Of a stretch of 41,034 nucleotides of DNA, positions 12,772-35,910 are shown in pieces. Position 1 is the first letter of the stretch; every line of letters starts with the position of its first letter. The stretch is from Aquimarina litoralis (GTDB lineage: Bacteria > Bacteroidota > Bacteroidia > Flavobacteriales > Flavobacteriaceae). The stretch covers positions 1-41,034 of the forward strand of contig NZ_WEKL01000001.1 of NCBI RefSeq assembly GCF_019295435.1, given 5' to 3'. The notes beneath the pieces are model-generated. The model had not been told where the DNA came from. It did not search any database and saw only the letters and a program-made list of their open reading frames with translations. A program made the position numbers and the translations under genes.

Positions 12772-12775
12772 CGTT

Positions 12776-12805: not shown

Positions 12806-12808
12806 CCT

Positions 12809-13678
12809 ATGGCTAAAAAGAAAAAAGAACAAAAGAGAATCACCAAGAAGTTACTAAACAAATACAGATTAGTAATTCTTAATGAAGATACTTTTGAAGA
12901 AAGAATATCTTTTAAATTGACCAGGTTAAATGTTTTTGTGCTGGTTACCATCACATCGATTATTTTAATTTCTTGTACGACTATTTTAATTGCTTTTACA
13001 CCGCTTAGAGAATATATTCCAGGATATTCTTCTACTTCACTTAACCAAAAAGCTACAAGACTAGTTTCTACAGCAGATTCTTTAGAAACAGTACTTGCTG
13101 TAAATCAGAAATATTATAATTCGATTAAAAAAGTACTTACAGGAGATGTAAAAACAGTAGAGTTTGATATTGATTCTGCCGTTCAATCCCAAAAGTTGAA
13201 TCCTGATGAGGTGGATTTGAATCCATCAGAGCAAGATATGCAACTTAGAGAAGAGGTTTCACGAGAAGATAAGTATAGCTTGTTTGAAAGCGAAAAATCT
13301 AGTACAGATTTTTCACTATTTCCTCCTGTAAATGGTAGCATTACATCTGGATATGACGTAAACGAAAAACACTATGCGGTAGATATAGCGGTTCCTAAGG
13401 ATACTCCAATAAAAGCAGCAGCAGCAGGAACAGTAATTTTTGCAGAGTGGACTGCGGAAACGGGCCATGTAATCATTTTAGAACACGGAAATGATTTACT
13501 TACTGTATATAAGCACAACGCATCGCTAACAAAAGAACAAGGTGAGGTAGTAAAAGCAGGAGAAGTTATTGCTACAGCAGGATCCACAGGAGAACTATCT
13601 ACAGGGCCTCATTTACACTTTGAATTATGGAGAGATGGATATCCTACAGATCCATCAAAATTTATTGATTTTGAATAA
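12809..13678 (+). CDS. Membrane-anchored M23 family metallopeptidase (peptidoglycan endopeptidase)
   Basis: The 289-residue protein has a Lys-rich N-terminus, one membrane helix (about 40-63) and a periplasmic LytM/M23 domain in the last 120 residues. The zinc site is complete: H188 and D192 in HYAVD, and HLH at 268-270 in GPHLHFELW; H236 in VYKHN is the usual additional active-site histidine. M23 enzymes cut peptide cross-links in peptidoglycan; single-helix forms often work in cell division or envelope remodelling. The 70-170 segment is polar and could be a coiled coil or linker. The GH3-like gene follows nine bases later, so they are co-transcribed. Confidence 0.93.
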   Translation: MAKKKKEQKRITKKLLNKYRLVILNEDTFEERISFKLTRLNVFVLVTITSIILISCTTILIAFTPLREYIPGYSSTSLNQKATRLVSTADSLETVLAVNQKYYNSIKKVLTGDVKTVEFDIDSAVQSQKLNPDEVDLNPSEQDMQLREEVSREDKYSLFESEKSSTDFSLFPPVNGSITSGYDVNEKHYAVDIAVPKDTPIKAAAAGTVIFAEWTAETGHVIILEHGNDLLTVYKHNASLTKEQGEVVKAGEVIATAGSTGELSTGPHLHFELWRDGYPTDPSKFIDFE

Positions 13679-13687
13679 TAAGATACA

Positions 13688-19169: not shown

Positions 19170-20189
19170 TTGAAAAATTTATTAATAACAGGAGGAGCAG
19201 GATTTATTGGCTCAAATTTTGTTTGCTATTTACTTGAAAAATATCCAAAGACTCATATCGTTAATATTGACAAGTTAACATATGCAGGAAATACGGAAAA
19301 TTTAGATGAAATTGGAAATTCGACAAATTATACTTTCATTGAGGGAGATATATGTGACAGGAAGCTTGTAGAAAAATTATTTCAAGAGTATAATTTTGAC
19401 GGTGTTATTCATTTAGCAGCTGAATCTCATGTCGATAATTCAATTTCTAATCCAGATGAATTCATTAAAACAAACGTTTTTGGAACTTTTACATTGATTG
19501 ATGTAGCTAGAGATTTTTGGATGGAAGCTCCGCACAATTATAAGCAAGATCGCGAAAACTGTCGTTTTCATCATGTGTCTACAGATGAGGTATATGGTAC
19601 TCTTGGAGAAACAGGATTGTTCAAGGAAACCACTCCTTATGCTCCTAATAGCCCATATAGTGCCTCTAAAGCGTCGTCAGATTTTATAATTAGAAGTTAT
19701 TTTCATACCTATGGAATGAACGTAGTTACTACAAATTGCTCCAATAATTATGGACCAAAACAGCATGATGAGAAGTTAATACCTACGATTATTAGAAAAG
19801 CAATTTCAGAAGAAAATATACCTATTTATGGAGATGGCAAAAATGTAAGAGATTGGTTATATGTCCTGGATCACTGTAAGGGTATTGAGTTAGTTTTTAG
19901 AAAAGGAGTTTCTGGTGAGACGTATAATATTGGAGGAAAAAATGAACGAAATAACAACTATATCGCAAAAAAGATTTGTGAATTGTTAGACAAAAAGATG
20001 CCAAGAAAAAGCGGTGGTTCTTATGAAGAATTGATTACTTATGTTAAGGACAGACCAGGACATGATTTAAGATATGCCATAGACGCATCTAAAATTGAAA
20101 ATGAATTAGGATGGGAAGCCGAAGAAAATTTTGAAACGGGCATTGATAAAACAATAGATTGGTATTTAAAAAAATATAAGAACACATGA
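19170..20189 (+). CDS. rfbB: dTDP-glucose 4,6-dehydratase
   Basis: The 339-residue extended SDR converts dTDP-glucose to dTDP-4-keto-6-deoxyglucose, the second step of dTDP-L-rhamnose synthesis in the cytosol. It shows GGAGFIGSN (8-16) for NAD binding, the STDEVYG motif (137-143) with the conserved Asp-Glu pair that protonates and deprotonates the substrate, and YSASK (163-167). The start is TTG at 19170; there is no in-frame ATG between the preceding stop and this codon, and TTG gives the proper N-terminus [12 protein letters not shown]. The last four bases overlap rfbA (ATGA), so the genes are coupled. Confidence 0.95.
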
Positions 20190-21049
20190 AAGGAATCGTT
20201 CTTGCAGGAGGTTCAGGTACAAGACTACACCCTCTAACTTTAGCAGTTAGTAAACAGCTTGTTCCCATTTATGATAAACCCATGATTTATTATCCTCTTT
20301 CAACTTTAATGTGGTCAGGAATAAGAGAGATTCTCATTATTTCTACACCACATGATCTTCCGTTGTTTAAAAAACTACTAGGAAACGGTGAAAAATTCGG
20401 ATGTAGATTTGAGTATGCCGTACAAGAACACCCAAATGGATTGGCTGAAGCTTTTATTATAGGTGCAGATTTTATTGGAAATGACAAAGTCGCTTTGATC
20501 CTTGGAGACAATATTTTTTATGGAACGGGACTTTCAAAGCTTTTACAAGCTAATAACAATCCTGATGGGGGAATTATCTATGCATATCATGTGCATGATC
20601 CCGAAAGATATGGAGTAGTTGAATTTAATGATGACGGAAAAGTAATTTCCATAGAAGAAAAACCTCATAAACCAAAATCAAATTTTGCAGTACCAGGTAT
20701 ATATTTTTATGATAATGAAGTAATAGATATTGCAAAAAATATTAAGCCAAGTGATAGAGGAGAGCTTGAAATTACAGATGTAAATAGGGAATATCTAAAA
20801 AAAGGAAAGCTAAATGTAAGCATTCTGGACAGAGGCACTGCTTGGTTGGATACAGGAACTTTTAATTCGTTAATGCAAGCTTCTCAATTTGTTCAGGTTA
20901 TCGAAGAAAGACAAGGACTAAAAATCGGTGCTATAGAAGAAGTTGCTTATAAAATGAATTATATATCAAAAGAAGAATTAAAGCAGTTGGCAATACCACT
21001 AATCAAAAGTGGTTATGGGAAACACCTAACTAGCATTTTAGAAGAATAG
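20186..21049 (+). CDS. rfbA: Glucose-1-phosphate thymidylyltransferase
   Basis: The 287-residue cytosolic enzyme joins glucose-1-phosphate and dTTP, the first step to dTDP-rhamnose. The nucleotide-binding motif [11 protein letters not shown] (8-18) and [19 protein letters not shown] right after it are the RmlA hallmarks, and EKPHKPKSN with the following GIYFYD helps make the sugar pocket. Length fits the family (about 290). It overlaps rfbB by four bases and is two bases before rfbC, in the standard coupled rhamnose cassette. Confidence 0.97.
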
Positions 21050-21051
21050 AG

Positions 21052-21597
21052 ATGATTGCAACGGAAACTAAGCTAAAAGGATGTTTCGTTTTAGAGCCTT
21101 CAATTTTTGAAGATGAAAGAGGTTATTTTTTTGAAAGTTATAATCAAAAAAAATTTGAAGAATTAATTGGCCAAAAAGTCAATTTTGTACAAGATAATCA
21201 ATCTTTTTCCGCTAAAGGAGTAATAAGAGCACTTCATTATCAAACAGGAGATTATGCCCAAGCAAAGTTGGTTAGAGTACTTAAAGGTAAAGTGTTAGAT
21301 GTAGCGGTGGATCTGCGGAAAGATTCACCAACCTATAAAGAGTATATAGCTATCGAATTGTCTGATAATAATCAAAAACAATTGTTTATTCCTAGGGGGT
21401 TTGCACATGGTTTCGTTACTTTAAGTGATACAGCTATTTTTTTCTATAAGTGCGATAATTTTTATAATAAAGAAGCCGAAGGAGGTATTATTTTCAATGA
21501 TGAAGAATTGAAAATAGATTGGAAAGTTAAGGAAGAAGAGATTATAGTTTCAGAAAAAGACATAATACTTCCAAATTTTAGAAACGCAAAATTATGA
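21052..21597 (+). CDS. rfbC: dTDP-4-dehydrorhamnose 3,5-epimerase
   Basis: The 181-residue cupin-fold enzyme (the usual length) inverts C3 and C5 of the 4-keto sugar. The segment VQDNQSFSAKGVIRALHYQ contains the likely catalytic His at position 62, and DVAVDLRKDSPTY follows with the general-acid partner region. It functions as a dimer in the family. It is separated from rfbA by two bases and overlaps rfbD by four, so translation is coupled. Confidence 0.96.
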   Translation: MIATETKLKGCFVLEPSIFEDERGYFFESYNQKKFEELIGQKVNFVQDNQSFSAKGVIRALHYQTGDYAQAKLVRVLKGKVLDVAVDLRKDSPTYKEYIAIELSDNNQKQLFIPRGFAHGFVTLSDTAIFFYKCDNFYNKEAEGGIIFNDEELKIDWKVKEEEIIVSEKDIILPNFRNAKL

Positions 21598-22451
21598 TAT
21601 CTATACTTGTTACAGGAGCAAATGGACAGTTGGGTTTATGTCTTAAAAAGGCATCAAAAAAAATAGAAAATTTTAATTTTAGCTTTAAAACATCATCAGA
21701 ACTAGATATTACTAACGAGAAGAGTGTCGATACGCTTTTTAGTAGCAATAAATATGATTATGTCATAAATTGTGCAGCTTATACAAATGTTGAACAATCA
21801 GAAAAATCGACTGAGAAAGCTTTTTTTGTAAATGCAGAAGGAGTACATAATTTGGCAAAGGTTTGTAAAAACCAAGACATAACCCTTATTCATATTTCTA
21901 CAGACTATGTTTTTGATGGAAACACAAGAACACCTTACTCCGAAAATCAAATTACCAATCCAATTAATGAATATGGGAGATCTAAGTTAAAAGGAGAGAA
22001 ATATATTCAAGAAATTTTAGACAAACATTTTATTATCAGGACCTCGTGGTTGTATTCAGAATACAATAAGAATTTCTTCAAAACTATTTTAAACAAATCT
22101 GAAACAGAATCTAAGCTTACAATAACAACGGCAGAGAAGGGAACTCCAACTAATGCAAATGATCTTGCAGAATTCATCTTACACATTATTTCTTCCGGAA
22201 GCTTAAAATATGGAATCTATCACTTTAGTAACCTCGGTGAAGCAACATGGTATGATTTTGCTGAAGAAATCTTAAAATATATCAGTAAAGAAAAAAATAT
22301 TGAATTACTGAAAACAGATAACTATCCTACCCTTGCCAAAAGACCTAATTATAGTGTTTTAAGTAAAGAAAAACTTATTAATTCATTTAGCTTTGACGTT
22401 TTAGATTGGAAAGAATCACTAAGAAAATTAATGCACATGATGCTCTTATAG
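21594..22451 (+). CDS. rfbD: dTDP-4-dehydrorhamnose reductase
   Basis: The 285-residue SDR reduces the 4-keto group to finish dTDP-L-rhamnose. GANGQLG (8-14) binds NADPH; STDYVFDG (102-109) and YGRSK (127-131) are the conserved active-site blocks. It closes the rfbB-A-C-D cassette. After it comes a 120-base gap with two hairpins before manC, the first break in the coupled run, which might mark a change in transcript level. Confidence 0.95.
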   Translation: MISILVTGANGQLGLCLKKASKKIENFNFSFKTSSELDITNEKSVDTLFSSNKYDYVINCAAYTNVEQSEKSTEKAFFVNAEGVHNLAKVCKNQDITLIHISTDYVFDGNTRTPYSENQITNPINEYGRSKLKGEKYIQEILDKHFIIRTSWLYSEYNKNFFKTILNKSETESKLTITTAEKGTPTNANDLAEFILHIISSGSLKYGIYHFSNLGEATWYDFAEEILKYISKEKNIELLKTDNYPTLAKRPNYSVLSKEKLINSFSFDVLDWKESLRKLMHMMLL

Positions 22452-23684: not shown

Positions 23685-24701
23685 ATGTTGGACTTAAATG
23701 GAAAATCAATCCTTATCACTGGAGGAACTGGTAGTTTTGGCAAAACATTTACTAAGCTCATTTTAAAAAGATTTCCTAAAGTAAATAGATTGGTAATATT
23801 TTCCAGAGACGAACAAAAGCATTTTCAGATGGGACTAGAGTTTCCTGAAGATAAGTATCCTGCATTACGTTTTTTTGTTGGAGATGTTAGAGATAGAGAA
23901 AGACTATTTAGAGCGTTTGAAGGAATTGATATAGTTATTCACGCAGCAGCTATGAAACATGTTCATATAGCGGAATATAATCCTATGGAATGTGTAAAGA
24001 CAAATATTTTAGGAGCAGAAAACGTAATTGATGCCGCATTAGCAAGTAACGTAAAAGATGTAGTTGCATTATCTACGGATAAAGCTGCTGCACCAATTAA
24101 CCTCTATGGAGCTACAAAGCTGGCCTCAGACAAGTTGTTTGTAGCAGCTAATAATATTAGAGGTAAAAGAGATATTAAGTTTTCGGTAGTTAGATATGGT
24201 AATGTTATGGGGTCAAATGGATCGGTAATGCCATTTTTTTTAAAGAAAAAAGCAGCTGGTAAATTGCCAATTACAGATGAAAGAATGACAAGGTTCAATA
24301 TTAGTTTGGAAGATGGTTGTGAAATGGTTTTCAACGCTATTGAAAAGGCTTGGGGAGGAGAAATCTTTGTTCCAAAGATCCCTTCTTATAAGATTACAGA
24401 TGTTGCCGAAGCAATTGCTCCAGAAGCAGTACAAGAAATAGTAGGTATTCGTCCAGGAGAAAAGCTACATGAAGAAATGATAACTATGTCAGATTCTTTT
24501 AATACTTGGGATCTAGGAAAATACTATTCGATACTTCCGCAAAAACCAATTTTTGATTTAAACAAGTATGTAGAGCATTTTAACGCTACAAAAGTTCCGG
24601 AAGGGTTTTATTATAATTCAGGAGAGAATACTGATTGGGAGACGGTAGATAGTTTAAGAAAACTTGTTAAAGAACATGTAGATCCAAATTTCACTGTATA
24701 A
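23685..24701 (+). CDS. pseB: UDP-GlcNAc 4,6-dehydratase (inverting), pseudaminic acid step 1
   Basis: The 338-residue SDR turns UDP-GlcNAc into UDP-2-acetamido-2,6-dideoxy-L-arabino-hexos-4-ulose. It has TGGTGSFG (12-19) for NADP binding, AAMKHV (88-93), LSTDKAAAP (129-137) with the TDK catalytic block, and YGATK (141-145). These match PseB/FlaA1-type enzymes, which lack the membrane domain seen in the CapD/WbpM group. It heads the pse block, directly followed by pseC with a one-base overlap (TAATG). The possibility that it is the retaining enzyme of the legionaminic route is less likely given the pseC, pseG and pseI types nearby. Confidence 0.88.
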   Translation: MLDLNGKSILITGGTGSFGKTFTKLILKRFPKVNRLVIFSRDEQKHFQMGLEFPEDKYPALRFFVGDVRDRERLFRAFEGIDIVIHAAAMKHVHIAEYNPMECVKTNILGAENVIDAALASNVKDVVALSTDKAAAPINLYGATKLASDKLFVAANNIRGKRDIKFSVVRYGNVMGSNGSVMPFFLKKKAAGKLPITDERMTRFNISLEDGCEMVFNAIEKAWGGEIFVPKIPSYKITDVAEAIAPEAVQEIVGIRPGEKLHEEMITMSDSFNTWDLGKYYSILPQKPIFDLNKYVEHFNATKVPEGFYYNSGENTDWETVDSLRKLVKEHVDPNFTV

Positions 24702-25846
24702 TGAAGGCAATACCTTACGGCAGACAATCTATTGACAAAGATGATATAAATGCGGTTATAGAAACATTACAAGCAGATTATCTTACTCAAGGTCCTAAAG
24801 TAAAGGAGTTTGAAGAAAAATTTGCTGCTTATGTTGGTTCCAAATATGCTGTTGCGGTAAGCAATGCAACTGCAGGATTACATATTTCGGTAGCAGCGCT
24901 TGGCTTGAATTCTGGAGATAGAGTAATTACAACACCAATCACATTTGCTGCTTCCGCAAACTGTATTAGATATTGTGGTGGAGAAGTTTGGTTTGCAGAT
25001 ATTGACCCAGAAACCTATTTGCTTTCCATAGAGAGTACTCGAAAACTTATCGAAAGCAAGCCTAAAGGGTTTTTTAAAGGAATTATACCTGTTGATTTTG
25101 CTGGTTTACCGGTAGATACAGAAGCTTTTAGAACACTTGCTAATGAACATGACCTTTGGATAATAGAAGATGCATGTCACGCTCCAGGTGGTTATTTTGA
25201 AGATTCTCAAAATGAAAAACAAATGTGTGGGAATGCCAAATATGCAAATATTGGTATTTTCTCTTTTCACCCTGTAAAACATATTGCTTGTGGTGAAGGC
25301 GGTATGATTACCACTAATGATGAAAAGCTTTACAAGAAATTACTTTTATTAAGAACACATGGTATCACCAAAGAAGATATGTCTGAAAATCATGGAGGTT
25401 GGTATTATGAAATGCAAGAATTAGGATTCAATTATAGATTAACCGATATTCAATCTTCATTGGGAATAACCCAATTGGCAAAAAACACCAATGGAGTTAT
25501 TAAAAGAAATAAAATAGCAAAAAGATATAAAGAGGCTTTTGAAGGTAAAGTAAAATTCCAAGGACTTCCACAAAATAGCTATAATGCACATCATCTTTTT
25601 GTGATTGAGGTAGATAACCGTAAAGACCTTTACGACTTTTTAAGAGAAAATGGAATTTTTGCACAAATACATTATATACCGGTGCACACTCTTCCATATT
25701 ATAAAGAGATAGGGTATAAAGAAGCAGATTTAAAAAATTCTGAAAACTACTATTCTAATTGTTTAAGCCTTCCGATGTATCCCACATTAACTTCGGAAGA
25801 ACAAGATTTTGTCATTTCTAAAGTTTTAGAATTTATTCATGGGTAA
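24701..25846 (+). CDS. pseC: PseC-type PLP aminotransferase (pseudaminic acid step 2)
   Basis: The 381-residue DegT/DnrJ/EryC1 aminotransferase would place an amino group at C4 of the PseB product. The catalytic lysine is K193 in SFHPVKHIACGEGG, and D157 in IIEDACHA would bind the PLP ring nitrogen. The N-terminus (IPYGRQSIDKDDINAV) and overall length match PseC, as does its direct coupling to pseB. The 4-amino sugar it makes is the usual substrate of PseH; here no GNAT PseH is found and the later formyltransferase-like genes are candidates. It overlaps pseF by 8 bases. Confidence 0.9.
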   Translation: MKAIPYGRQSIDKDDINAVIETLQADYLTQGPKVKEFEEKFAAYVGSKYAVAVSNATAGLHISVAALGLNSGDRVITTPITFAASANCIRYCGGEVWFADIDPETYLLSIESTRKLIESKPKGFFKGIIPVDFAGLPVDTEAFRTLANEHDLWIIEDACHAPGGYFEDSQNEKQMCGNAKYANIGIFSFHPVKHIACGEGGMITTNDEKLYKKLLLLRTHGITKEDMSENHGGWYYEMQELGFNYRLTDIQSSLGITQLAKNTNGVIKRNKIAKRYKEAFEGKVKFQGLPQNSYNAHHLFVIEVDNRKDLYDFLRENGIFAQIHYIPVHTLPYYKEIGYKEADLKNSENYYSNCLSLPMYPTLTSEEQDFVISKVLEFIHG

Positions 25847-26546
25847 TCTTGCAATCATACCAGCTAGAGGTGGAAGTAAGCGTATACCTGGGAAAAATAT
25901 TAGACCTTTTTTAGGGAAACCTATTATAGCTTATTCCATAGAATCGGCAATAGATTCAGGTATATTCGATTCAGTAATGGTTTCTACCGATAGCGATGAA
26001 ATAGCAAAAACAGCAAAAGAATATGGAGCTGAAGTTCCTTTTTTAAGGAGTGTAAAAAATGCTGATGATCATGCAACACTTTCCGATGTTGTAATGGAAG
26101 TAATCCATTCCTATAAAGAAAAAGGAAAAGAATATGATAACATATGTTGTATATTACCTACAGCACCATTTATAAGCGGAAATAAAATAAAAAAAGGTTT
26201 TGAAGAACTAATTTCAAAAAAATTACAAAGCGTATTTCCAGTAATTGAATTTTCCTATCCTATCCAACGTTGTTTGGCTTTTGATGAAGGAAAAATAAAA
26301 ATGGTATGGAATGAATTTTTAAATTCTAGATCTCAGGACTTACCAAAACGTTTCCATGATACTGGTCAATATTATTGGTTAAATACGAAAGCATTTTTAA
26401 AAGAAGGAACCTTATTTACTAAGAACTCTGGTGCGATTATTATTTCTGAGTTAGAAGCACAAGATATCGATACTCTAACAGATTGGAAACTTGCAGAAAT
26501 AAAGTATGAACTAATGTTAGATTATGGGAAAGAAAATACTCTTTAG
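25839..26546 (+). CDS. pseF: Pseudaminic acid cytidylyltransferase
   Basis: The 235-residue enzyme activates pseudaminic acid with CTP, the last step before transfer. The CMP-sugar synthetase signature is seen at IIPARGGSKRIPGKNI (6-21), followed by FLGKPIIAYSI, and FHDTGQYYW further on suits the PseF subgroup. It is coupled to pseC by an 8-base overlap and overlaps pseG by 23 bases. Its presence confirms that the final activated sugar is of the nonulosonic acid class. Confidence 0.9.
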   Translation: MGNLAIIPARGGSKRIPGKNIRPFLGKPIIAYSIESAIDSGIFDSVMVSTDSDEIAKTAKEYGAEVPFLRSVKNADDHATLSDVVMEVIHSYKEKGKEYDNICCILPTAPFISGNKIKKGFEELISKKLQSVFPVIEFSYPIQRCLAFDEGKIKMVWNEFLNSRSQDLPKRFHDTGQYYWLNTKAFLKEGTLFTKNSGAIIISELEAQDIDTLTDWKLAEIKYELMLDYGKENTL

Positions 26547-27546
26547 AGCAGATGGAAATTCTTCTATTGGTCTTGGACATTTGTATCGTCTTTTTGCCAT
26601 AGTTGAAATGGTTAAAGAATTATACGAATTTGTGTATATAGTTCGTGCTTCTTCCACCTCAGGTATAATACCAAACGAGTATACAAAACTTTTGATACCT
26701 GAAAATGTAGATGAAAAAGAAGAGCCAGAATGGTTAGCGAAAAGGTATGCTCCAAAAGAACATATCATTATAGCAGATGGATATGACTTTGTATCAAATT
26801 ATCAAAAGAAAATAAAGTCTTTAGGCTTTTCACTGGTTTATATTGATGATTTGGTAAAGGAACACATGTATGCTGATATTGTAATTAATCATTCGCCATC
26901 ATTAAAGTCTTTAGATTTTAGTTCAGAATCATACACTAAATTTGCTTTAGGAACAGAATATTCGATTTTACGACCTTTTTTTATTGAAAAAGCAAAAGAG
27001 AGGAAGGAAAAAACAAGTATCAATAATGTTTTTATTTGTTTTGGGGGATCAGATTTTTATGATTTAACTTATAAAAGTGTAGAAGGAGTTGTTGGAATAA
27101 ATGATGTAAAAGAGATTCATGTTGTGTTAGGAGGAGCTTATAATTATGAAGATATCCATGATTTGATCAAAGATAAAAAGGACAAAGTTTTTATACACAG
27201 GAATTTAGCTGAGAAAGAAATGCTTAATATTATGGATAAGTGTGATCTTGCCATAGTGCCAACAAGCACAATTTGTTATGAGGTTTGTTGTGTGAAAATG
27301 TTGATTTTTGGAGGGTATTATGTTGATAATCAAATAAATATTTATAAAGGATTTCTGAATAATGATGTTATTTATCCTGGAGGTGATTTTAAAAAATATT
27401 CTTCAGGTGATTTTAAAGAAAAAGTGGAGGATATAATGAAAAATCAAACTTCAGATTTCAAAAAAAAACTTGCAAATCAATATAAGTTGTTTGACGGAAA
27501 CCAGAAAAAACGTTTTTTAAAATTATTAAATGAATTAGAAGTATGA
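26524..27546 (+). CDS. pseG: UDP-sugar hydrolase of the pseudaminic acid pathway (PseG-like)
   Basis: The 340-residue GT-B-fold protein would remove UDP from the 2,4-diamido-trideoxy sugar to free the substrate of PseI. The N-terminal motif FRADGNSSIGLGHLYR holds the expected catalytic His (H19) within GxGHxxR. IVPTSTICYEVCCVKM near residues 245-260 corresponds to the nucleotide-binding C-terminal domain. It starts inside pseF (23-base overlap) and overlaps the next gene by four bases. Sequence is moderately divergent from better-known PseG proteins, which could reflect a different acyl group on the substrate. Confidence 0.85.
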   Translation: MGKKILFRADGNSSIGLGHLYRLFAIVEMVKELYEFVYIVRASSTSGIIPNEYTKLLIPENVDEKEEPEWLAKRYAPKEHIIIADGYDFVSNYQKKIKSLGFSLVYIDDLVKEHMYADIVINHSPSLKSLDFSSESYTKFALGTEYSILRPFFIEKAKERKEKTSINNVFICFGGSDFYDLTYKSVEGVVGINDVKEIHVVLGGAYNYEDIHDLIKDKKDKVFIHRNLAEKEMLNIMDKCDLAIVPTSTICYEVCCVKMLIFGGYYVDNQINIYKGFLNNDVIYPGGDFKKYSSGDFKEKVEDIMKNQTSDFKKKLANQYKLFDGNQKKRFLKLLNELEV

Positions 27547-28181
27547 TAATTCAAATACTAGTTGACAACCCTAATTCGTGGATCATTCCATATACTAATG
27601 AATTAATAAATACTATTAAACTGAAATTTGGGTATTCACCAGTTCTCTTACATGATCATAGCGAAGTCGTAGCTGGTGAACTATTATTTTTGTTGTCATG
27701 TGAGAAAATTTTTAGAGCCCTTCATTTGAATAAGCATAATTTAGTAGTTCATGAAAGTGATCTTCCAAAAGGAAAGGGATGGTCGCCTGTTACGTGGCAG
27801 GTATTAGAAGGTAAAAAGGAGATACCTGTTACATTATTTGAAGCTGTTGAAAAAGTTGATGCTGGAGAAATATATTTTCAGAAAAACATTGAATTAATAG
27901 GGCATGAACTTATAGATGAAATAAAAGATATGCAAGGTAGAATTACCAATGAATTAATTTTAAAATTCTTGGAAAATTATCCAAAGATCAATGGAACTGC
28001 TCAAAAAGGAAAAGAAACATTTTATAAAAAAAGAACACCTAATGATAGCGAGCTGGATATTAATAAATCAATTAAAGAACAGTTTGATCTATTAAGAGTT
28101 TGTGATAATGAAAGGTACCCTGCTTTTTTTGTGCACAATACAAAAAAGTATATAATAAAGATTTATAAAGAAGATGAATAA
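27543..28181 (+). CDS. Short formyltransferase-fold protein 1 of the pse block
   Basis: The 212-residue protein has a formyltransferase-like core. VVHESDLPKGKGWSP (68-82) aligns with the NxHxSLLPxxxGxxP motif of folate-dependent formyltransferases, and VDAGEIY (105-111) with the DxG block. The catalytic His (H70) and Asp (D106) are in place, but the usual Asn two residues before the His is Val68. It is too short for methionyl-tRNA formyltransferase (about 310) and lacks the C-terminal tRNA domain. By context it would transfer a formyl group from N10-formyltetrahydrofolate to an amino sugar in the pseudaminic route, possibly in place of PseH. That is inference. It overlaps pseG by 4 bases. Confidence 0.75.
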   Translation: MIIQILVDNPNSWIIPYTNELINTIKLKFGYSPVLLHDHSEVVAGELLFLLSCEKIFRALHLNKHNLVVHESDLPKGKGWSPVTWQVLEGKKEIPVTLFEAVEKVDAGEIYFQKNIELIGHELIDEIKDMQGRITNELILKFLENYPKINGTAQKGKETFYKKRTPNDSELDINKSIKEQFDLLRVCDNERYPAFFVHNTKKYIIKIYKEDE

Positions 28182-28854
28182 TTTTGTTGTATTATCAGAA
28201 AAAACATGGAATACCCGATTGGTAGAAAATCTAAAAAAAAATATTCCAGATGCTCAATGGTTACTGATAAATAATAAGAGTGATTTTTTATTAGAAAATT
28301 TAAAAAAAATCAATCCTAGTAAAATATTTATTCCACATTGGTCATATATTATTCCTGCGGAAATTTTTTCATCTTTTGAATGTATTGTTTTTCATATGAC
28401 AGATTTACCTTATGGAAGAGGTGGTAGTCCTTTGCAAAATTTAATTGTTCGAGGACATAAAAAGACCAAAGTTTCTGCATTAAAAGTGGTAAAAGAGTTA
28501 GATGCAGGTCCGATTTATCTGAAACAAGAATTAGATCTTTACGGAACAGCAGAGGAAATTTTTATTCGTACCAATGAAACAATTGAAGAAATGATTGTTA
28601 AAATCGTTTCAAATAATTTATCACCTATTGAGCAGGAAGGAGAGCCAGTTTTTTTTAAAAGGAGAAAACCAGCTATGAGTGAAATAGCGCAGATAGATGA
28701 AATAGGTAAACTCTATGATCACATTAGAATGTTGGATGCTGAAGGTTATCCCAAAGCATATTTTGAAAATGATCACTTTAAATTTGAATTTACTAGAGCA
28801 AGTTTGAAATCCAATAATACAATATTAGCAGATGTTAGAATCATTAAGAAATAA
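28174..28854 (+). CDS. Short formyltransferase-fold protein 2 of the pse block
   Basis: The 226-residue protein is a second, clearly different formyltransferase-like protein. IFIPHWSYIIPAEIF (about 51-65) matches the strand and helix before the active site in these enzymes. VFHMTDLPYGRGGSP (72-86) carries the catalytic His (H74) and LDAGPIYL (109-116) the Asp (D110); Val72 stands where Asn is usual. It overlaps the first formyltransferase-like gene by 8 bases and the PIG-L gene by 23. Two such proteins in one pathway suggest two different amino positions, or one that lost activity. The substrate is inferred from context only. Confidence 0.75.
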   Translation: MNNFVVLSEKTWNTRLVENLKKNIPDAQWLLINNKSDFLLENLKKINPSKIFIPHWSYIIPAEIFSSFECIVFHMTDLPYGRGGSPLQNLIVRGHKKTKVSALKVVKELDAGPIYLKQELDLYGTAEEIFIRTNETIEEMIVKIVSNNLSPIEQEGEPVFFKRRKPAMSEIAQIDEIGKLYDHIRMLDAEGYPKAYFENDHFKFEFTRASLKSNNTILADVRIIKK

Positions 28855-29542
28855 AAGAATACTACTAGTAGTAGCGCATCCAGATGATGAATTATTAGGC
28901 TTAGGAGCTACAATGCACAAACTTATTAAAGAATGCAATTGCGCTATAAGAACGATAATACTAGGAGAAGGAATCACTTCAAGATCAGATAAACGAGATC
29001 CAAAATTGTGGGAGGATGAATTGAAAAAGCATAGACAAAATATTGAGGATGCTAGAGCAGCAATAGGTTATGAATCAGTTGGTGTTTATGATTTCCCAGA
29101 TAATAGATTCGACTCGGTTGATTTGTTGGATATCGTTAAAGTAATTGAAGCGGAAAAACAAGAATTTCAACCAGAAATTATTTTTACTCATCACGGAGGA
29201 GATGTCAATATCGATCATCAAAGAACTTTTGAAGCGGTAATTACAGCTACTAGACCTATGGAACATGAAAAGGTGCATACAATAATCACTTTTGAAACGC
29301 CATCTGGTACAGAGTGGAGAGCATCTTCAGATCCTAAACATTTTATCCCTAATTTTTTTGTAGAGGTTTCTGAGGAAAATGTCGATGCTAAAATAAAAGG
29401 AATGGAAAGTTATGAATTCGAAAAAAGAGCTTTCCCTCATCCAAGATCACCAAAAGCATTGAAAGTTTTAGCACAGCAAAGAGGAATAATAGTAGGAAAA
29501 AAATATGCTGAAGCGTTTGTTATAATAAGAACAATAAGTTAA
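28832..29542 (+). CDS. PIG-L family deacetylase in the pse block
   Basis: The 236-residue zinc-dependent hydrolase has AHPDDE (15-20), whose H16 and D19 bind zinc, and HHGGDVNIDHQ (120-130), whose H129 is the likely third ligand. PIG-L/LmbE enzymes remove N-acetyl groups from GlcNAc-type sugars. Here, between the formyltransferase-like genes and pseI, it may free an amino group on a pathway sugar for re-acylation, or act on the finished sugar. It has no signal sequence and should be cytosolic. It starts within the previous gene (23-base overlap) and is six bases from pseI. Confidence 0.85.
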   Translation: MLESLRNKRILLVVAHPDDELLGLGATMHKLIKECNCAIRTIILGEGITSRSDKRDPKLWEDELKKHRQNIEDARAAIGYESVGVYDFPDNRFDSVDLLDIVKVIEAEKQEFQPEIIFTHHGGDVNIDHQRTFEAVITATRPMEHEKVHTIITFETPSGTEWRASSDPKHFIPNFFVEVSEENVDAKIKGMESYEFEKRAFPHPRSPKALKVLAQQRGIIVGKKYAEAFVIIRTIS

Positions 29543-29547
29543 AAAAA

Positions 29548-30591
29548 ATGAAGATAGGAAATAGAAATATAGGAGAGAATCATCCCTGTTTTATAATTGC
29601 AGAACTCTCAGCAAATCATAATGGAAGTTTAGAAGTTGCAATAGAAACAATTAGAGCAGCTAAAAGAACAGGAGCAGATGCCATAAAATTGCAAACATAT
29701 ACTCCAGACACTATGACCATTGATGAGAATAATGAGCACTTTCAAATTAAAGAAGGTACTTTGTGGGACGGAAAAACGCTGTATGAGCTTTATAAAGAAG
29801 CGTATACACCATGGGAATGGCATGAAGAGCTTTTTAAGGTTGCTGCTGAAGAAGGATTGATGTGTTTTTCTTCTCCTTTTGACATAACAGCTGTGGACTT
29901 TCTGGAGAAATTTGATGTACCCGTATATAAAATAGCATCTTTTGAGATTCAGGATATACCTTTAATAGAGTATACAGCTTCTAAAGGAAAGCCTATCATT
30001 ATTTCTACTGGAATTGCAACAAAAGAAGATATTCAATTGGCAGTTGATACGTGCAGAAATGTTGGCAATGAAGATATTGTTTTATTAAAATGTACATCCT
30101 CGTATCCTGCACCATTGGACTTGGCAAATTTAAATACAATTCCAGATATCAAGAATCAATTTAATGTTGAGGTAGGTTTTAGTGACCATACGTATGGTTC
30201 TTTAGCTCCAGCAATTGCAACAACTCTTGGTGCTAATGTTATTGAGAAACACTTCATCCTTAACAAATCAATTGGAGGACCTGACGCAGACTTTTCACTA
30301 GATGAAAAAGAGTTTACCGAAATGGTAAAAGCTGTAAGAGATACTGAAAAGATGCTTGGTGTACCTAATTATGAAGTTTCAGAGAAAGTAAAGAAAAATA
30401 GAAAATTTGCGCGATCCTTGTTTGTAGTAAAAGATATAAAAAAGGGCGATGTATTATCTTCAGAAAATGTAAGATCTATAAGACCTGGAAACGGAATGCA
30501 TCCTAAATATTACAATCAAATATTGGGCAAAACTGTAAATGAAGATATAAAAAGAGGAACTCCTCTTTCATTAAATCAAATAAATAGGTAA
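29548..30591 (+). CDS. pseI: Pseudaminic acid synthase
   Basis: The 347-residue enzyme condenses the free 6-deoxy di-N-acyl hexose with phosphoenolpyruvate, giving the nine-carbon sugar. The NeuB-type TIM-barrel is seen from AELSANHNGS (18-27) onward with KLQTYTPDTM and SFEIQDIPLIEY, and the C-terminal SAF domain (about 285-345) with RSLFVVKDIKKGD and IRPGNGMHPKYY is present. The SANHNGS motif and neighbours favour PseI over the NeuB or LegI versions. It closes the biosynthetic set begun by pseB and is five bases ahead of the amidotransferase-like gene. Confidence 0.92.
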   Translation: MKIGNRNIGENHPCFIIAELSANHNGSLEVAIETIRAAKRTGADAIKLQTYTPDTMTIDENNEHFQIKEGTLWDGKTLYELYKEAYTPWEWHEELFKVAAEEGLMCFSSPFDITAVDFLEKFDVPVYKIASFEIQDIPLIEYTASKGKPIIISTGIATKEDIQLAVDTCRNVGNEDIVLLKCTSSYPAPLDLANLNTIPDIKNQFNVEVGFSDHTYGSLAPAIATTLGANVIEKHFILNKSIGGPDADFSLDEKEFTEMVKAVRDTEKMLGVPNYEVSEKVKKNRKFARSLFVVKDIKKGDVLSSENVRSIRPGNGMHPKYYNQILGKTVNEDIKRGTPLSLNQINR

Positions 30592-30596: not shown

Positions 30597-32378
30597 ATGC
30601 TACTTTTATTTAATTATTCAAGTGTTGCCGGCACTAACGAACTTATTGCAAATAACCTATCATTTCAGTATAAACTTAATGATAGGGAGTATTTTTTTGA
30701 AAATGAAATAGCATTTTTTTTTCTAATCTCAAATGCTAATATAAAAGATGAATTAGAATCCATTTTTTCTAAAGATACCCTTAGCATTGAGTTGATAAAA
30801 TCATCTCTTAAAGGTGATTATTTTGGCGTATTCATAGAAAAACTCACCTCAGAAATAATAGTGATCAGAGATAAATCAGGAATAAATACTGGATATTATC
30901 GACATGACGAGACAAACCGAAAATTGGTAATAAGTAGTTTAATGCATGAAATTACGCAATTTTCTTCTTGCAATTTTGATGATGAAGCCGTTTACCAGTT
31001 TTTATATTCTGATTACCTATGGGATGGTCAAACATTTTATAAAGAAGTAAACGAATTTAAAATAGGAGGAGAGTACTTTTTTGATAAGAACTTGCAATTA
31101 CTAAGAGAGGAAAAATTTGAAATTGTTTTTGATAACAAGGAGAACGATCTTTCTGAACAACAGAATATTAGTGTTTTAAGAGAAAAAATAGTTGAGGCTC
31201 ACAAAAAATATATCAATAAAGAAAATGTAGTTCTACTATCTGGGGGTATCGATTCAGTGGCAATTATTATTGCTTTAGATGATTTAATTAAAAAAGATAG
31301 AATAAAGGCTCATTCTTATAAAGTAAAAAACGCAATAAATGCTGATGAGACAGTATACGCGAAAAGCATAGCAAATCACTTGGATATCGATATTGATGTT
31401 TTTGAAACGGAATTAAGACAAAATACATCATCGTTAGAGTTTGAAAAATTAATATTAAAAATGAATAATCCATATATGGGTGTACACATTTTTAATGATA
31501 ATTTTGAAAATGTTGATAAGATAACATACTACGCTGGTCAAGACACAAGACTTCATACCCCTTCGGTCAATAAAGTAGATTTATTAGCATTCAACTTAAT
31601 TAATAAACCAAAAATAATTTTAAAATCACTAAATGGACTTATGTATATTTTAAGACCATTGTTTAAGTTATTTGAAGGATCTAGGAATAGAAAATTAAGA
31701 GGTCTATTAAGGGTAACATATATTTTTAATCTAAAAAAATACGTGTATAAATACTATTTTAAAATAGATAAGATGCACCTTAAATCTCAGGATTTACCTT
31801 TAGAGTTTTTTGATAAGTTTAAAAGCAATTATCAATTAGATTTAAGTAAAATTAATACTGCAAGAGGCTTGTATAATGAAATTGTAGCGCTAAAATGGAG
31901 AGAACAATACGTTTCGGATATTAGATATTTACAAGATATGGCTAGAATGAATAACTCATATATAGCTTTACCTTTTTATGATATGGAGATTGCGAAATAT
32001 AAAGCTGGAATACCCTTTAATTTAGCAATAAAAACCATGCTTGGGAAGGCTGAGTTCGGGGAAGCAAAAAAAATCGTTTATAAATATTTATTGCGTATGT
32101 CTCTTAAAGATAAGATAGATGATAAAACGTTCTACAGATCCAAAGCTGCACCAGCAACATTTTATGTTCTTTTTAATGAAGGATTGTCAAATACTATAAA
32201 ATCAGTTTTCACCTCTGATTTAAATTCGGAAAAACCATTTATCAAAAAATATAAGTTAGATAGGTTTATTAATAAGTTTATGGAAAAATCATTACCATGG
32301 AAGGAAGAGGATCAAGGCTATTTATTAAAAATATATAATACCGCAGCAATGATTTGTTATTATAACAGATTAATTTAA
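30597..32378 (+). CDS. Asparagine-synthetase-like protein lacking the catalytic cysteine
   Basis: The 593-residue protein has an N-terminal half that resembles the class II glutamine amidotransferase part of AsnB but starts MLLLFNYSS, without the Cys2 nucleophile. The synthetase half has the ATP pyrophosphatase motif VVLLSGGIDS (211-220) and an Asn-synthase domain to about residue 590. Without Cys2 it cannot take ammonia from glutamine in the usual way; it may use free ammonia or a different amine, or the N-terminal half may only be structural. In polysaccharide clusters such proteins amidate uronic acids or modify nonulosonic acids. The substrate here is unknown. It is five bases after pseI, so co-transcribed with it. 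Confidence 0.75.
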   Translation: MLLLFNYSSVAGTNELIANNLSFQYKLNDREYFFENEIAFFFLISNANIKDELESIFSKDTLSIELIKSSLKGDYFGVFIEKLTSEIIVIRDKSGINTGYYRHDETNRKLVISSLMHEITQFSSCNFDDEAVYQFLYSDYLWDGQTFYKEVNEFKIGGEYFFDKNLQLLREEKFEIVFDNKENDLSEQQNISVLREKIVEAHKKYINKENVVLLSGGIDSVAIIIALDDLIKKDRIKAHSYKVKNAINADETVYAKSIANHLDIDIDVFETELRQNTSSLEFEKLILKMNNPYMGVHIFNDNFENVDKITYYAGQDTRLHTPSVNKVDLLAFNLINKPKIILKSLNGLMYILRPLFKLFEGSRNRKLRGLLRVTYIFNLKKYVYKYYFKIDKMHLKSQDLPLEFFDKFKSNYQLDLSKINTARGLYNEIVALKWREQYVSDIRYLQDMARMNNSYIALPFYDMEIAKYKAGIPFNLAIKTMLGKAEFGEAKKIVYKYLLRMSLKDKIDDKTFYRSKAAPATFYVLFNEGLSNTIKSVFTSDLNSEKPFIKKYKLDRFINKFMEKSLPWKEEDQGYLLKIYNTAAMICYYNRLI

Positions 32379-32668: not shown

Positions 32669-33892
32669 ATGCAGTTAATAAAAAAAAACTATGCTCTATT
32701 GAAATTTATTTCATTAAGTTATTTTGATAAAGCGATTATTTTTTTAGTACCGTTACTGGTACTTTATCTTTTTAATAGTAAGTCAATTTACGTATCGGTA
32801 GAGTATATTTATTCTATTGTACTTGTCGCTGTCCCTTTTTTAGATTTCGGATTAACAGGATATTTTTTTTATTATTATCGTGAACATAAGTCTAAAAGAA
32901 CAGCAATAATCGCAATATTTAACGCATTTCATATTCTTTATGCAGTATTGTTTACGATTGGTATTCTTTTCATTTTGGTTCATTACTTATGGATTCCTTT
33001 TGAAGATTATATTGTTTTTATAGTATTTAGATGTCTTTTCGTAGTACTGTTTATGTTTCTATCTTCTTATTATAGGTTGGTAAACAAACCTCAGAAAGCA
33101 CTTTTTGTTACTATTATTTCAAATATAATTTCATTAATCACAATATTTTGTTTTTATATTTTAAAACTAGAAGTTAATGTTTTTATAGTTTTTGTAGGAC
33201 AAATTTTATTTTGTTTTTATTTCTTTTTCAAAATCATCAAACGATTTGTCAAAAAAATGAATATAAATAAAAAAGTACTTTATGCTATTTTACACAAGTC
33301 ATTTCTATTCTCTTGGCCAACTATTATTCAGGCTTTTTTAATAATGTACATTGCCAATTACGGAAAAGTTAATGCACTACATTATTTGACTTTAGATGAA
33401 GCAACCTTATTATCTTTAACACAACGATATGCTATGTTAATTCAATTAACGCACACATCTATAGTTGCTTTTTTGATGAAAGATTTATATTTAGAAGAAA
33501 TTAAAGAAATTAACTTAAAAATACTTTTAAAATATATTACCCTTATAATATTAAGTGCTATAGTTGTATTCATAGTTCTTAGCATTAATTGGTATTTTAA
33601 AGCAATTGATATTACGAGTGAAAGGATTTTTCAGGTTTCTATAGCTATAATTGTATATACAGTATTGTGGTGTATTTATTCATATATTGAAATATTTTAT
33701 AGTAGGGAAAATAAAAACATTATTAAACTTTATTTAGCTATTGTAAATGCATTAGTTTTTATAGGGGTAATAAGTCTGTTTTCAATTCCTTTTCTTGAAA
33801 AAGTAATTTATGCGATGACGTGCAGTATCTTTGTGGCTTTAGTTACATCTACTGGTATTTTAATAAGAAGGCGCTATTATTTTAAAATATAA
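32669..33892 (+). CDS. Wzx-type lipid-linked oligosaccharide flippase
   Basis: The 407-residue, very hydrophobic protein has about 11-12 membrane helices and no soluble domain, as expected of a MATE/MOP-type Wzx flippase (usual length 400-480). It would move the undecaprenyl-linked repeat unit across the inner membrane. Sequence identity within Wzx is low and no motif fixes the identity; the call rests on topology, length, and position amid glycosyltransferase and Wzy genes. The stop codon overlaps the next ATG by one base (TAATG). Confidence 0.75.
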   Translation: MQLIKKNYALLKFISLSYFDKAIIFLVPLLVLYLFNSKSIYVSVEYIYSIVLVAVPFLDFGLTGYFFYYYREHKSKRTAIIAIFNAFHILYAVLFTIGILFILVHYLWIPFEDYIVFIVFRCLFVVLFMFLSSYYRLVNKPQKALFVTIISNIISLITIFCFYILKLEVNVFIVFVGQILFCFYFFFKIIKRFVKKMNINKKVLYAILHKSFLFSWPTIIQAFLIMYIANYGKVNALHYLTLDEATLLSLTQRYAMLIQLTHTSIVAFLMKDLYLEEIKEINLKILLKYITLIILSAIVVFIVLSINWYFKAIDITSERIFQVSIAIIVYTVLWCIYSYIEIFYSRENKNIIKLYLAIVNALVFIGVISLFSIPFLEKVIYAMTCSIFVALVTSTGILIRRRYYFKI

Positions 33893-34554
33893 TGAAAAAT
33901 ATTACAACACTTTTAATATCAATAATTCCAATTAATAAACTGAAGATTTATATGTATAACAAAATTTTTGGGTTTAATATATCATACGAATCAAAATTAG
34001 GGTATTTTAATATTTTTAAAGTAAATAAATTTGTTGTACAAAAATCAACTATTGGCAATTTTAACCTTATTCAGGCTGATAAAGTTATATTAAAAGAAGG
34101 AGCCTGGATTAATAAATTTAATAGGATCAAAAACTGTAATAAATTAATTTTAAAAGAAAAAGCCATTATTTTTAGTTGGAATTTTATCGCTGGTATTCCT
34201 ATGAATAGCACCCATAAGGGGCTCGTGTTTGAAAGACAAAATCTAACTTTAGGCAAAACTTCAGAAATTTTAAGGAGTAATTACGTGGATTTGACAAATG
34301 AAATTACAATTGGAGATAATGTTGTTTTTGCCGGAAACGGGTCAGAGTTATGGACACATGGTTTCGATACAAAAAGGAATTACCAAAGTGGATCTATTGT
34401 TCTCGGAAATAATATTTTCATAGGTTCTAACTGCACTTTTACAAAAAATGTGTCAGTTTGTGACAATGTAACAATTGGACCATCATCGGTTATATATAAA
34501 TCAATAAATGAAGAAGGAGTTTATTCTTCTCAGAAATTATACAAAGTAAAATAA
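33892..34554 (+). CDS. Hexapeptide-repeat acyltransferase
   Basis: The 220-residue protein has left-handed beta-helix repeats in its C-terminal half (from about 130; EITIGDNVVFAGNGSELWTH, then IVLGNNIFIGSNCTFTKN and VTIGPSSVIYKS), as in O-acetyltransferases of the WcaF/LacA group. The His in ELWTHGFD is a likely catalytic base, and N-terminal strands carry more irregular turns. It probably adds acetyl or a similar group from acyl-CoA to a sugar of the repeat unit; an N-acyl role in the pse pathway is an alternative. It joins the flippase and the next gene by one-base overlaps. Confidence 0.75.
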   Translation: MKNITTLLISIIPINKLKIYMYNKIFGFNISYESKLGYFNIFKVNKFVVQKSTIGNFNLIQADKVILKEGAWINKFNRIKNCNKLILKEKAIIFSWNFIAGIPMNSTHKGLVFERQNLTLGKTSEILRSNYVDLTNEITIGDNVVFAGNGSELWTHGFDTKRNYQSGSIVLGNNIFIGSNCTFTKNVSVCDNVTIGPSSVIYKSINEEGVYSSQKLYKVK

Positions 34555-35900
34555 TGAAGAACATTTGTTTCGTTTCGAATTTTGAGAAGACTTATGTTTT
34601 TGATGGTGTTGCTCGAATTTTAAAAGATCAGCATCAAATTAAGGTTTTTTGGATAGTAGTTAATTCTAAATACTTGAAATATTTGTCTGAAAAGAATGAC
34701 TTAGATGAAATTTTATATATCCATAAAGATTTAGAAGCACATGAATCAGTTGGGGATTATAAAATAAACGAATTAGTTGCGAATGATAGATTTTTATCTC
34801 TGGATAAAGAAGTTGGGTTGCGCTTTTTAAACAGTATCCAGAAACCAGTGTATGAATTCATTAGAAAAAACAAAATAACAACTATTTTTGGAGAATTGAC
34901 ATGGTCTCATGAACTACTAATTAGTAGAATGGTTAATACTAATGTTGAGTTAGATTGTAGATATTATAATCCTCATGTGGTTCGAATTCCGAATGGAAGA
35001 TTTGCTTTCTTTAAAGAAGAAAAAGAGGACCTCAAATTAGATGATAATGTACACTATCAAGAATTAAATCACCCATTAATTAAATTAGAAAAACCAGACT
35101 ACGTAAATGTAAATGATAAAATAGTAAATGAATCATTAAAGCTTAAAACAAAATATAATAGATTTCAACGCTTTCTATCGAAGAAGAATGTGGAGAAAAA
35201 TGATCCTAGCTTATTGTATAATTTTAAGGATAGATTGAAAAGGGGCTATACTGAGGAGAAAAATAGAAGAAGATATTACAGTATAAAAACAATTTCATTT
35301 GATGAAATAAAAAATAAAAAGTATGTAGTTTATCCTCTCCATAAACAACCCGAAGCGTCTATTGATGTATTAGGTAAATACTACAATAATCAATGGATAA
35401 ATATTTTTAATATATGGAAGTTACTTCCAGGAGATTGGTGTTTAGTTGTTAAAGAGCATAGCAATGCAATTGGAGATAGAGATAAAAGTTTTTATCAAAA
35501 AATACAGAATCTTCCGAATAGTTACTTAGTAAATGAAAAGACCGATTCTTACGCTTTAATTAGAAATTGTCAAACTATTTTTACCGTTAGCGGCACCATT
35601 GCATATGAAGCTGCTTTAATGGAAAAAACTGCTTTTACATTTGCCCCCATGTTTTTCAATAAGCTAAAATACTGCCATCAAATTTCTATAGAAGACTTTA
35701 ACAACTGTGATAATTTATCAGCATTGATTTTGGAAAAAAATGGGGAAAATGATAAAAAAATGAGTGTTAAGGAGTTTTCTAATTTTGTGTATCATCACTC
35801 TTTTGAAGGAACATGGACACCTACGTCTCCTGATGTGCTCTCGCAAAGAAACCTGAATTTGTTGTCAGATGCTTTGATTCAACATCTAAATAAATCATAA
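34554..35900 (+). CDS. KpsS/Kdo-transferase-like protein, candidate pseudaminyl transferase
   Basis: The 448-residue protein resembles capsule glycosyltransferases of the KpsS/LipB type. The YPLHKQPEASIDVLG block, followed by WCLVVKEHSNAIGDRD and TVSGTIAYEAALMEK, follows the pattern of these GT-B enzymes, which bind CMP-activated nine- or eight-carbon acids (Kdo and relatives). As pseF makes CMP-pseudaminic acid nearby, a role as the transferase that attaches it is a reasonable inference. There are no membrane helices, so it would act at the inner face of the membrane. It overlaps the acyltransferase gene by one base; the polymerase gene begins 10 bases after it. Confidence 0.6.
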   Translation: MKNICFVSNFEKTYVFDGVARILKDQHQIKVFWIVVNSKYLKYLSEKNDLDEILYIHKDLEAHESVGDYKINELVANDRFLSLDKEVGLRFLNSIQKPVYEFIRKNKITTIFGELTWSHELLISRMVNTNVELDCRYYNPHVVRIPNGRFAFFKEEKEDLKLDDNVHYQELNHPLIKLEKPDYVNVNDKIVNESLKLKTKYNRFQRFLSKKNVEKNDPSLLYNFKDRLKRGYTEEKNRRRYYSIKTISFDEIKNKKYVVYPLHKQPEASIDVLGKYYNNQWINIFNIWKLLPGDWCLVVKEHSNAIGDRDKSFYQKIQNLPNSYLVNEKTDSYALIRNCQTIFTVSGTIAYEAALMEKTAFTFAPMFFNKLKYCHQISIEDFNNCDNLSALILEKNGENDKKMSVKEFSNFVYHHSFEGTWTPTSPDVLSQRNLNLLSDALIQHLNKS

Positions 35901-35910
35901 AGCGAAAGGT

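Follow-up and report, generated by a model that had tools for sequence, protein, structure and literature searches.

The window analysed here, 41,034 nucleotides of Aquimarina litoralis (NCBI RefSeq assembly GCF_019295435.1, contig NZ_WEKL01000001.1, positions 1 to 41,034), carries at positions 23685 to 30591 a run of eight genes for the synthesis of cytidine monophosphate (CMP)-pseudaminic acid. This run is without the acetyltransferase PseH and has in addition two formyltransferase-fold proteins, here called FT1 and FT2, and a PIG-L/LmbE-family deacetylase. We consider it probable that the run is the section of a surface polysaccharide locus devoted to pseudaminic acid, remodelled to make 5,7-di-N-formyl-pseudaminic acid (Pse5Fo7Fo). 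All eight genes are on the forward strand in the order pseB, pseC, pseF, pseG, FT1, FT2, PIG-L and pseI, and successive genes are separated by -1, -8, -23, -4, -8, -23 and +5 bp, the tight coupling that a sequence-only reading of this DNA had described. By comparison with related loci, FT1 looks like a replacement of PseH at C7, and FT2 with PIG-L looks like a device for exchanging acetyl for formyl at C5.

PseH, a GNAT acetyltransferase, was sought in the window and in the whole genome. Pfam gave no GNAT family match in the 26 open reading frames (ORFs) from 12809 to 40585 (thresholds E 0.1, 1e-5 and 0.001), and a whole-genome search with a PseH profile, A5 (E up to 1e-6), gave none inside the window, the 12 listed ORFs before 12809 included, in agreement with the earlier remark that no GNAT-like gene is visible there. 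The PseG proteins of relatives are often about 490-530 residues long, and a GNAT domain was present in all three such proteins scanned (L080, L089 and L086); Pfam detected none in the PseG of the window (340 residues). Profile A5 was built from 17 GNATs within pse clusters. It reached 145-167 bits in nine of nine control genomes whose cluster GNAT is outside the profile (G343, G345 and G440-G446), these having been chosen on the strength of a cluster GNAT detected with another profile, and 176 bits in G102, whose GNAT is part of the profile. The best A5 match in the A. litoralis genome (6.3 Mb, 115 contigs, completeness given as 99.99%) is 53 bits. Since A5 separates the controls from this genome, we judge the genome to be without PseH; a search of this kind had been proposed with the sequence-only reading, which it bears out. 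The curated PseH model TIGR03585 was rejected as a test. Its best match in the genome is 55 bits against a cut-off of 93, and the PseH-type domains of three relatives (L179, L196 and L080) score only 38-52 bits, as low as the other GNATs of the A. litoralis genome at 50-55 bits, so that the model does not discriminate; its cut-off was passed in only 2 of 395 phylum genomes within the limits of a first-look search.

Fifteen FT1-bearing genomes were also tested with A5 (G000, G217, G309, G345 and G429-G439; matches listed to E 1e-6), and 13 of them gave nothing above 53 bits. The exceptions are G432, with a 101-bit match in a second cluster on another contig that includes PseC-, PseF-, PseG- and PseI-like genes, and G345, where FT1 and FT2 share their cluster with a PseG that has a GNAT fused to it. 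In genome G217 (locus L082), PseG and PseI flank an FT1 that has no PIG-L or FT2 near it, and the genome gave no PseH match; another, classical formyltransferase is 6.7 kb away on the opposite strand. If FT1 only assisted or regulated FT2 and had no catalytic role of its own, some general GNAT encoded at another place in the genome could supply the C7 acyl group, and both the 50-55-bit GNATs of A. litoralis and three loci with FT1 and a PseH-type GNAT would suit such an arrangement. We regard it as very unlikely indeed, because a GNAT of 50 bits is also present in G102, which has a cluster PseH, and such scores are therefore background, because the active-site residues of FT1 are conserved in 16 sequences, and because the FT1 of L082 has no FT2 beside it.

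The linkage of FT2 to PIG-L was assessed in loci chosen by FT2 alone. A contig scan with an FT2 alignment gave 297 relatives, and the best 80 of these were fetched. They come from Bacteroidota, Ignavibacteria, Firmicutes, desulfobacterial and gammaproteobacterial groups, cyanobacteria, Nitrospirae, Planctomycetota and an archaeal bin, the nearest named relatives being mostly Flavobacteriaceae-type Bacteroidota. Adjacency was counted on all ORFs and then recounted, since greedy ORF layouts omit some short genes, and the profiles used for counting were built from trimmed domains, since PseG-GNAT fusions merge PseG with GNAT. PIG-L was found on the same strand as FT2 within 50 bp in 71 of the 80 loci and within 2.2 kb in 78, and in 29 the two frames overlap by 23 bp, exactly as in the window. 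The deacetylase, which had seemed the odd part of the gene set, is explained by this partnership. For comparison, 56 loci were chosen by PseI in the phylum survey (the window not among them; features within 6 kb on the same strand), and these included PIG-L above 100 bits in 6, FT2 in 2, FT1 in 2 and a GNAT above 80 bits in 37. FT2 adjoins PIG-L and FT1 adjoins PseG even when PseI stands between FT1 and FT2 (L191, L198, L201, L207, L218 and L273).

It could be that FT1 makes Pse5Ac7Fo, as in known glycans, and that another sugar of this polysaccharide is the one modified by FT2 and PIG-L. A formyl group at C7 is known from the Pse5Ac7Fo of Pseudoalteromonas distincta, as cited in PMC3210612, and genes for other sugars are also present in the locus. 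This is quite unlikely in our view, since FT2 and PIG-L overlap each other inside the pse run, and at least two of PseB, PseC, PseG and PseI are present in 69 of the 80 FT2 loci, across many phyla, a tie that would hardly be expected of a module for an unrelated sugar. As a separate observation, a Prochlorococcus genome has FT2 and PIG-L side by side (L251, 9989-11391), where no pse gene was recognised in the fetched 20 kb.

FT1 and GNAT tend to alternate around FT2. Within 6 kb of FT2, at thresholds of 80 bits for GNAT and 120 bits for FT1, the best 80 loci have GNAT without FT1 in 42 cases, FT1 without GNAT in 14, both in 3 and neither in 21 (Fisher p 6e-4, for loci that are not independent and with common descent uncorrected). 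A PseH-like GNAT domain is also fused to FT2 in L179 and L196; together with the GNAT-bearing FT2 loci, these fusions indicate that FT2 adds to PseH and is not a substitute for it. The sequence-only reading had put both formyltransferases in the place of PseH, and the survey of other pse loci that it proposed, once made, leaves only FT1 there. FT1 follows PseG directly, within 20 bp, in 9 of 17 FT1 loci (L181, L184, L185, L191, L198, L201, L207, L218 and L215). In the others it comes after a PseG-GNAT fusion (L235), 0.6 kb behind PseG (L234) or after PIG-L (L222 and L255), or no PseG was recognised directly before it (L212, L230, L244 and L246). A fusion of PseG with FT1 was considered as proof of the slot and rejected, as the sole FT1 fusion noticed (L222, 586 residues) is not to PseG. 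In that protein (11965-13725) the C-terminal part fused to FT1 reads, by eye, like a phosphotransferase or sugar kinase.

FT1 was detected in 5 of 395 phylum genomes (at least 187 bits) and 6 of 345 class genomes, A. litoralis being counted in both, and is therefore uncommon; L212, L234 and L235 of the FT2 set are probably the same records as in the 395-genome survey. In all 20 genomes of the same genus that were searched, nothing exceeded 39.1 bits, the level of ordinary formyltransferases, so the cluster is not a trait of the genus.

The AlphaFold2 model of FT1, made from a 16-row alignment, has a mean predicted local distance difference test (pLDDT) score of 96, and its best Foldseek matches in the PDB are 1zgh, VioF and ArnA; the predicted fold is that of a sugar N-formyltransferase. 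Structure prediction had been suggested for both proteins; FT2 was placed in the same fold by its sequence relationship to 1zgh. In sugar N-formyltransferases the catalytic motif is Asn-x-His ... Asp. The residues N66, V68, H70 and D106 are invariant in 16 FT1 sequences, with V68 at the place of the motif Asn, while H74 and D110 are invariant in 20 FT2 sequences, with V, I or C at position 72. His and Asp are 36 residues apart in FT1 and FT2, the same spacing as in ArnA. Four residues before the His there is an invariant Asn in FT1 and an invariant Cys in FT2. The sequence-only reading was right about the fold of the pair and overlooked the missing catalytic Asn. In the tree, FT1 (100/99) and FT2 (96/96) each fall into a clade of their own, and the node that joins the two is less well supported (94/84); the bootstrap was unsettled and some rows are long or fragmentary. 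The metal site of PIG-L is complete, with H16, D18, D19 and H129 invariant in 17 sequences; HxDD plus a distal His is the LmbE/PIG-L motif described in PMC4101496.

The missing Asn raises the possibility that FT1 and FT2 have the formyltransferase fold and use another donor or transfer another group. The residue at -2 from the active-site His is V in 16 of 16 FT1 and V, I or C in 20 of 20 FT2 sequences, and Asn stands there in five of six intact other formyltransferases compared, the sixth (L010) having Gly. Even so, the His and Asp are invariant, FT1 keeps its invariant Asn two residues earlier, and the closest folds are sugar and tRNA formyltransferases. On balance, a different transferred group or donor seems unlikely, and formyl transfer is the activity that we assume below.

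Several observations weigh against the proposed roles of FT1, FT2 and PIG-L. Both FT1 and FT2 depart from the Asn-x-His ... Asp motif, the Asn being gone and the His and Asp kept, and their activity is only predicted. The sample is limited to the best 80 of 297 FT2 relatives. FT1 and GNAT occur together in three of these loci (L215, L235 and L244), which then have more acyl transferases than amines. The 21 loci without FT1 and without a GNAT above 80 bits include short contigs and L252, whose GNAT is just below the threshold at 63 bits; others have a hexapeptide transferase and an ATP-grasp protein (L204), an ATP-grasp protein (L223), a WbqC-like protein (L231) or a methyltransferase (L233 and L258), and L256 has a WbqC-like protein in the region with a GNAT besides. 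PIG-L was not seen in L186 and L253, which are short contigs of 4.6 and 6.4 kb, and is 0.6 to 2.1 kb from FT2 in seven further loci. FT1 is among genes without a match to pse profiles in L274 (7283-7921), an FT1-like gene (190 bits) is near a distant NeuB-type gene in L276, and FT1 in L275 is in a pse locus on a short contig with no PseI, PIG-L or FT2 shown. In L272, the FT1 gene between PseG and PIG-L runs on the opposite strand, and the fetched 15.5 kb contain no FT2. The last locus would fit an exchange of roles, with FT2 setting C7 and FT1 with PIG-L setting C5, from which the product would still be di-formyl. This exchange is very unlikely given the 42 FT2 loci with a GNAT and no FT1, the GNAT-FT2 fusions, and the FT1 of G217 with no PIG-L in its run and no PseH in its genome. 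We therefore retain FT1 for C7 and FT2 with PIG-L for C5 as the preferred assignment.

From the gene content, the absence of PseH, the linkage, the alternation of GNAT with FT1, the predicted fold and the motifs, we infer the substrates, donor, order of steps and formyl product of the following pathway. By orthology, PseB and PseC would convert uridine diphosphate (UDP)-N-acetylglucosamine (GlcNAc) to UDP-4-amino-4,6-dideoxy-L-AltNAc (AltNAc, N-acetylaltrosamine). FT1, in the place of PseH, would formylate the 4-amine, the donor presumably being N10-formyl-tetrahydrofolate. PIG-L would remove the 2-N-acetyl group inherited from UDP-GlcNAc, either before or after PseG takes off UDP, and FT2 would formylate the amine so freed. 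PseI would condense the six-carbon sugar with phosphoenolpyruvate and PseF would then activate the product. The target of PIG-L is most simply placed at hexose C2, which becomes C5 of pseudaminic acid, because removal of a fresh N-acetyl at C4 would be futile. FT2 and PIG-L would thus form a C5 acyl exchange module alongside whichever enzyme sets C7. With the inherited acetyl removed and no N-acetylating enzyme found in the run, a di-formyl product would be expected whichever formyltransferase acts where. Cultured bacteria among the FT2 loci include Fodinibius roseus DSM 21986 (L198), which has FT1, FT2 and PIG-L like the window, and Salinimicrobium terrae DSM 17865 (L192) and Ulvibacter antarcticus DSM 23424 (L187), in which a PseH-type GNAT accompanies FT2 and PIG-L and the predicted product would be Pse5Fo7Ac. 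The sequence-only reading had suggested N-formyl at C7 and perhaps also at C5, and the lack of PseH, the pairing of FT2 with PIG-L and the many FT2 loci with GNAT and no FT1 all point the same way.

Some pse loci that lack FT2 also have PIG-L, and the enzyme near it there is a second GNAT-like protein in L083, a hexapeptide transferase in L086, an ATP-grasp protein in L088 and a carbamoyltransferase in L085. This variety of partners suggests that PIG-L may be a general C5 deprotecting step before different acylations. The carbamoyltransferase of L085 (6487-8166) lies between PseG and PseI in its cluster, hinting at a carbamoylated pseudaminic acid. Psychrobacter marincola is described as having a pseudaminic acid that is lactoylated at C5 and acetylated at C7 (PMC7281560); the 5-lactoyl form would need deprotection of C5, and a PIG-L protein may provide it. 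C7 appears to have alternatives of its own. An ArnA-like formyltransferase of about 290 residues (FTc) is beside PseI in five Bacteroidota pse loci (L130, L133, L140, L142 and L149) and, like FT1, stands where the PseH-type GNAT is missing, none above 80 bits being present in these five of the 56 PseI-chosen loci; a further 13 of the 56 have none of GNAT, FT1 and the ArnA-like protein. Unlike FT1 and FT2, FTc is classical, with N-x-H present in L133 (the one inspected), and there is no PIG-L in the five loci. FTc could be a second route to a 7-formyl sugar.

The gene set of the window thus appears to be one combination of a widespread modular system. We give about even chances to a combinatorial acyl code in which PIG-L is the general C5 deprotection step for exchangeable acylators (FT2 above all, perhaps also the second GNAT, the hexapeptide transferase and the ATP-grasp ligase), the C7 slot is exchangeable among PseH, FT1 and the ArnA-like enzyme, FT1 and FT2 are Asn-less formyltransferases for the two nitrogens, 1zgh-type proteins included, and the window is the di-formyl form.

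The features of the run are collected in the table. PseB, PseC, PseF, PseG and PseI pass the curated NCBIfam equivalog cut-offs, while FT1 and FT2 score far under the cut-off of every NCBIfam equivalog model that they match. They are two of six formyltransferase-N matches in the genome.

Table. Genes of the pseudaminic acid run in the A. litoralis window, with proposed roles and supporting matches
Feature	Position	Strand	Evidence
PseB, UDP-GlcNAc 4,6-dehydratase (5-inverting)	23685..24701	+	TIGR03589 504 bits, cut-off 408
PseC, C4 aminotransferase	24701..25846	+	TIGR03588 458 bits, cut-off 424
PseF, CMP-pseudaminic acid synthetase	25839..26546	+	TIGR03584 301 bits, cut-off 206
PseG, UDP-sugar hydrolase without fused PseH domain	26524..27546	+	TIGR03590 168 bits, cut-off 154, residues 4-273 of 340
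FT1, formyltransferase-fold protein, 212 residues; proposed PseH replacement (C4 amine, future C7)	27543..28181	+	PF00551 above cut-off
FT2, formyltransferase-fold protein of 1zgh family, 226 residues; proposed for deacetylated C2 amine (future C5)	28174..28854	+	PF00551 above cut-off; PF21553; phmmer to 1zgh E 7e-71
PIG-L/LmbE-family deacetylase, 236 residues; proposed to remove 2-N-acetyl (future C5)	28832..29542	+	PF02585
FT2/PIG-L reading-frame overlap, 23 bp	28832..28854	+	same length in 29/80 FT2 loci
PseI, pseudaminic acid synthase	29548..30591	+	TIGR03586 523 bits, cut-off 340; single PseI match in genome

The genes around the run resemble those of a surface polysaccharide locus. On one side are deoxythymidine diphosphate-rhamnose-type genes (19170-22451) and a nucleotidyl transferase (22572), and on the other two glycosyltransferases (37139 and 39497) and an O-antigen-ligase/Wzy-like protein (38251). 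Five bp after PseI starts an asparagine-synthase-like protein of 593 residues (30597-32378). Its N-terminus is not Met-Cys, which makes a working glutaminase half doubtful; a sugar acid in the polysaccharide may be what it amidates. A protein of 448 residues (34554-35900) has no Pfam match at 0.001 and 15 relatives in the fetched pse loci. Its model is of moderate quality (pLDDT 73) and matches GT-B-type epimerases and transferases in Foldseek with low template modelling scores, which is only suggestive of a candidate CMP-pseudaminic acid glycosyltransferase family. Three more polysaccharide genes (314-345 bits) are common to the window (32669-38251) and a Winogradskyella bin (L184, 12457-17556), so this type of locus recurs elsewhere.

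On bacterial surfaces, the acyl groups of pseudaminic acid are among the features that phages, antibodies and lectins encounter. If the exchange module is real, gene content would be enough to predict C5 formyl, perhaps for hundreds of genomes (the scan gave 297 FT2 relatives, the best 80 of which were examined), and enzymology would be presented with formyl transfer that does without the usual Asn. In the literature searched (subscription papers not covered), neither a C5 exchange module nor di-formyl pseudaminic acid was found described, and no account of the origin of C5 substituents other than acetyl was found; the view that a deacetylase with two formyltransferases is little described held up equally in that search.

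Compared with the classical pathway to CMP-Pse5Ac7Ac, the 5,7-di-N-acetyl form (PseB, PseC, PseH, PseG, PseI and PseF), five of six enzymes are present here above curated cut-offs, PseH is not, and the two formyltransferase-fold proteins and the PIG-L deacetylase are added. PseJ is a formyltransferase that replaces PseH in pseudaminic acid synthesis, and it is thus a precedent for a formyltransferase in that place; we know of no PIG-L or second formyltransferase in the PseJ route. PseJ is represented in the PDB by 6ci2, 6ci4, 6ci5 and 6edk. FT1 is distant from it, with 31 bits for PseJ against 78 for 1zgh in the FT1 profile search, and no close relationship to 6ci2 or 6ci4 was found, single searches with FT1 and FT2 not listing PseJ at E 0.001. 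Flagellar islands of types II to IV in Geobacillus are described as having pse genes while lacking PseH, with a formyltransferase gene present as well in the two islands of type III (PMC5109656). Halorubrum sp. PV6 has 5-N-formyl-legionaminic acid and a candidate formyltransferase gene in its cluster (PMC6137143). This too is a formylated nonulosonic acid, but of legionaminic configuration, and the word deacetylase is absent from the text of that paper. The LmbE/PIG-L deacetylases, such as N-acetylglucosaminyl-phosphatidylinositol (GlcNAc-PI) deacetylase, MshB and BshB, share the metal motif and act on a 2-N-acetyl sugar, as is presumed here; the review on them (PMC4101496) contains neither "pseudaminic" nor "nonulosonic", and the proposed substrate in A. 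litoralis is, by contrast, a 2,4-diamino-L-altrose or a nonulosonic intermediate. Finally, 1zgh, from Clostridium thermocellum, is named a methionyl-tRNA formyltransferase in the PDB. It is a close relative of FT2 (E 7e-71) and, like FT2, is without the Asn; because relatives of 1zgh occur in pse clusters, its name is probably wrong, and the exchange module, if true, would give a function to proteins that have been named for tRNA formylation.

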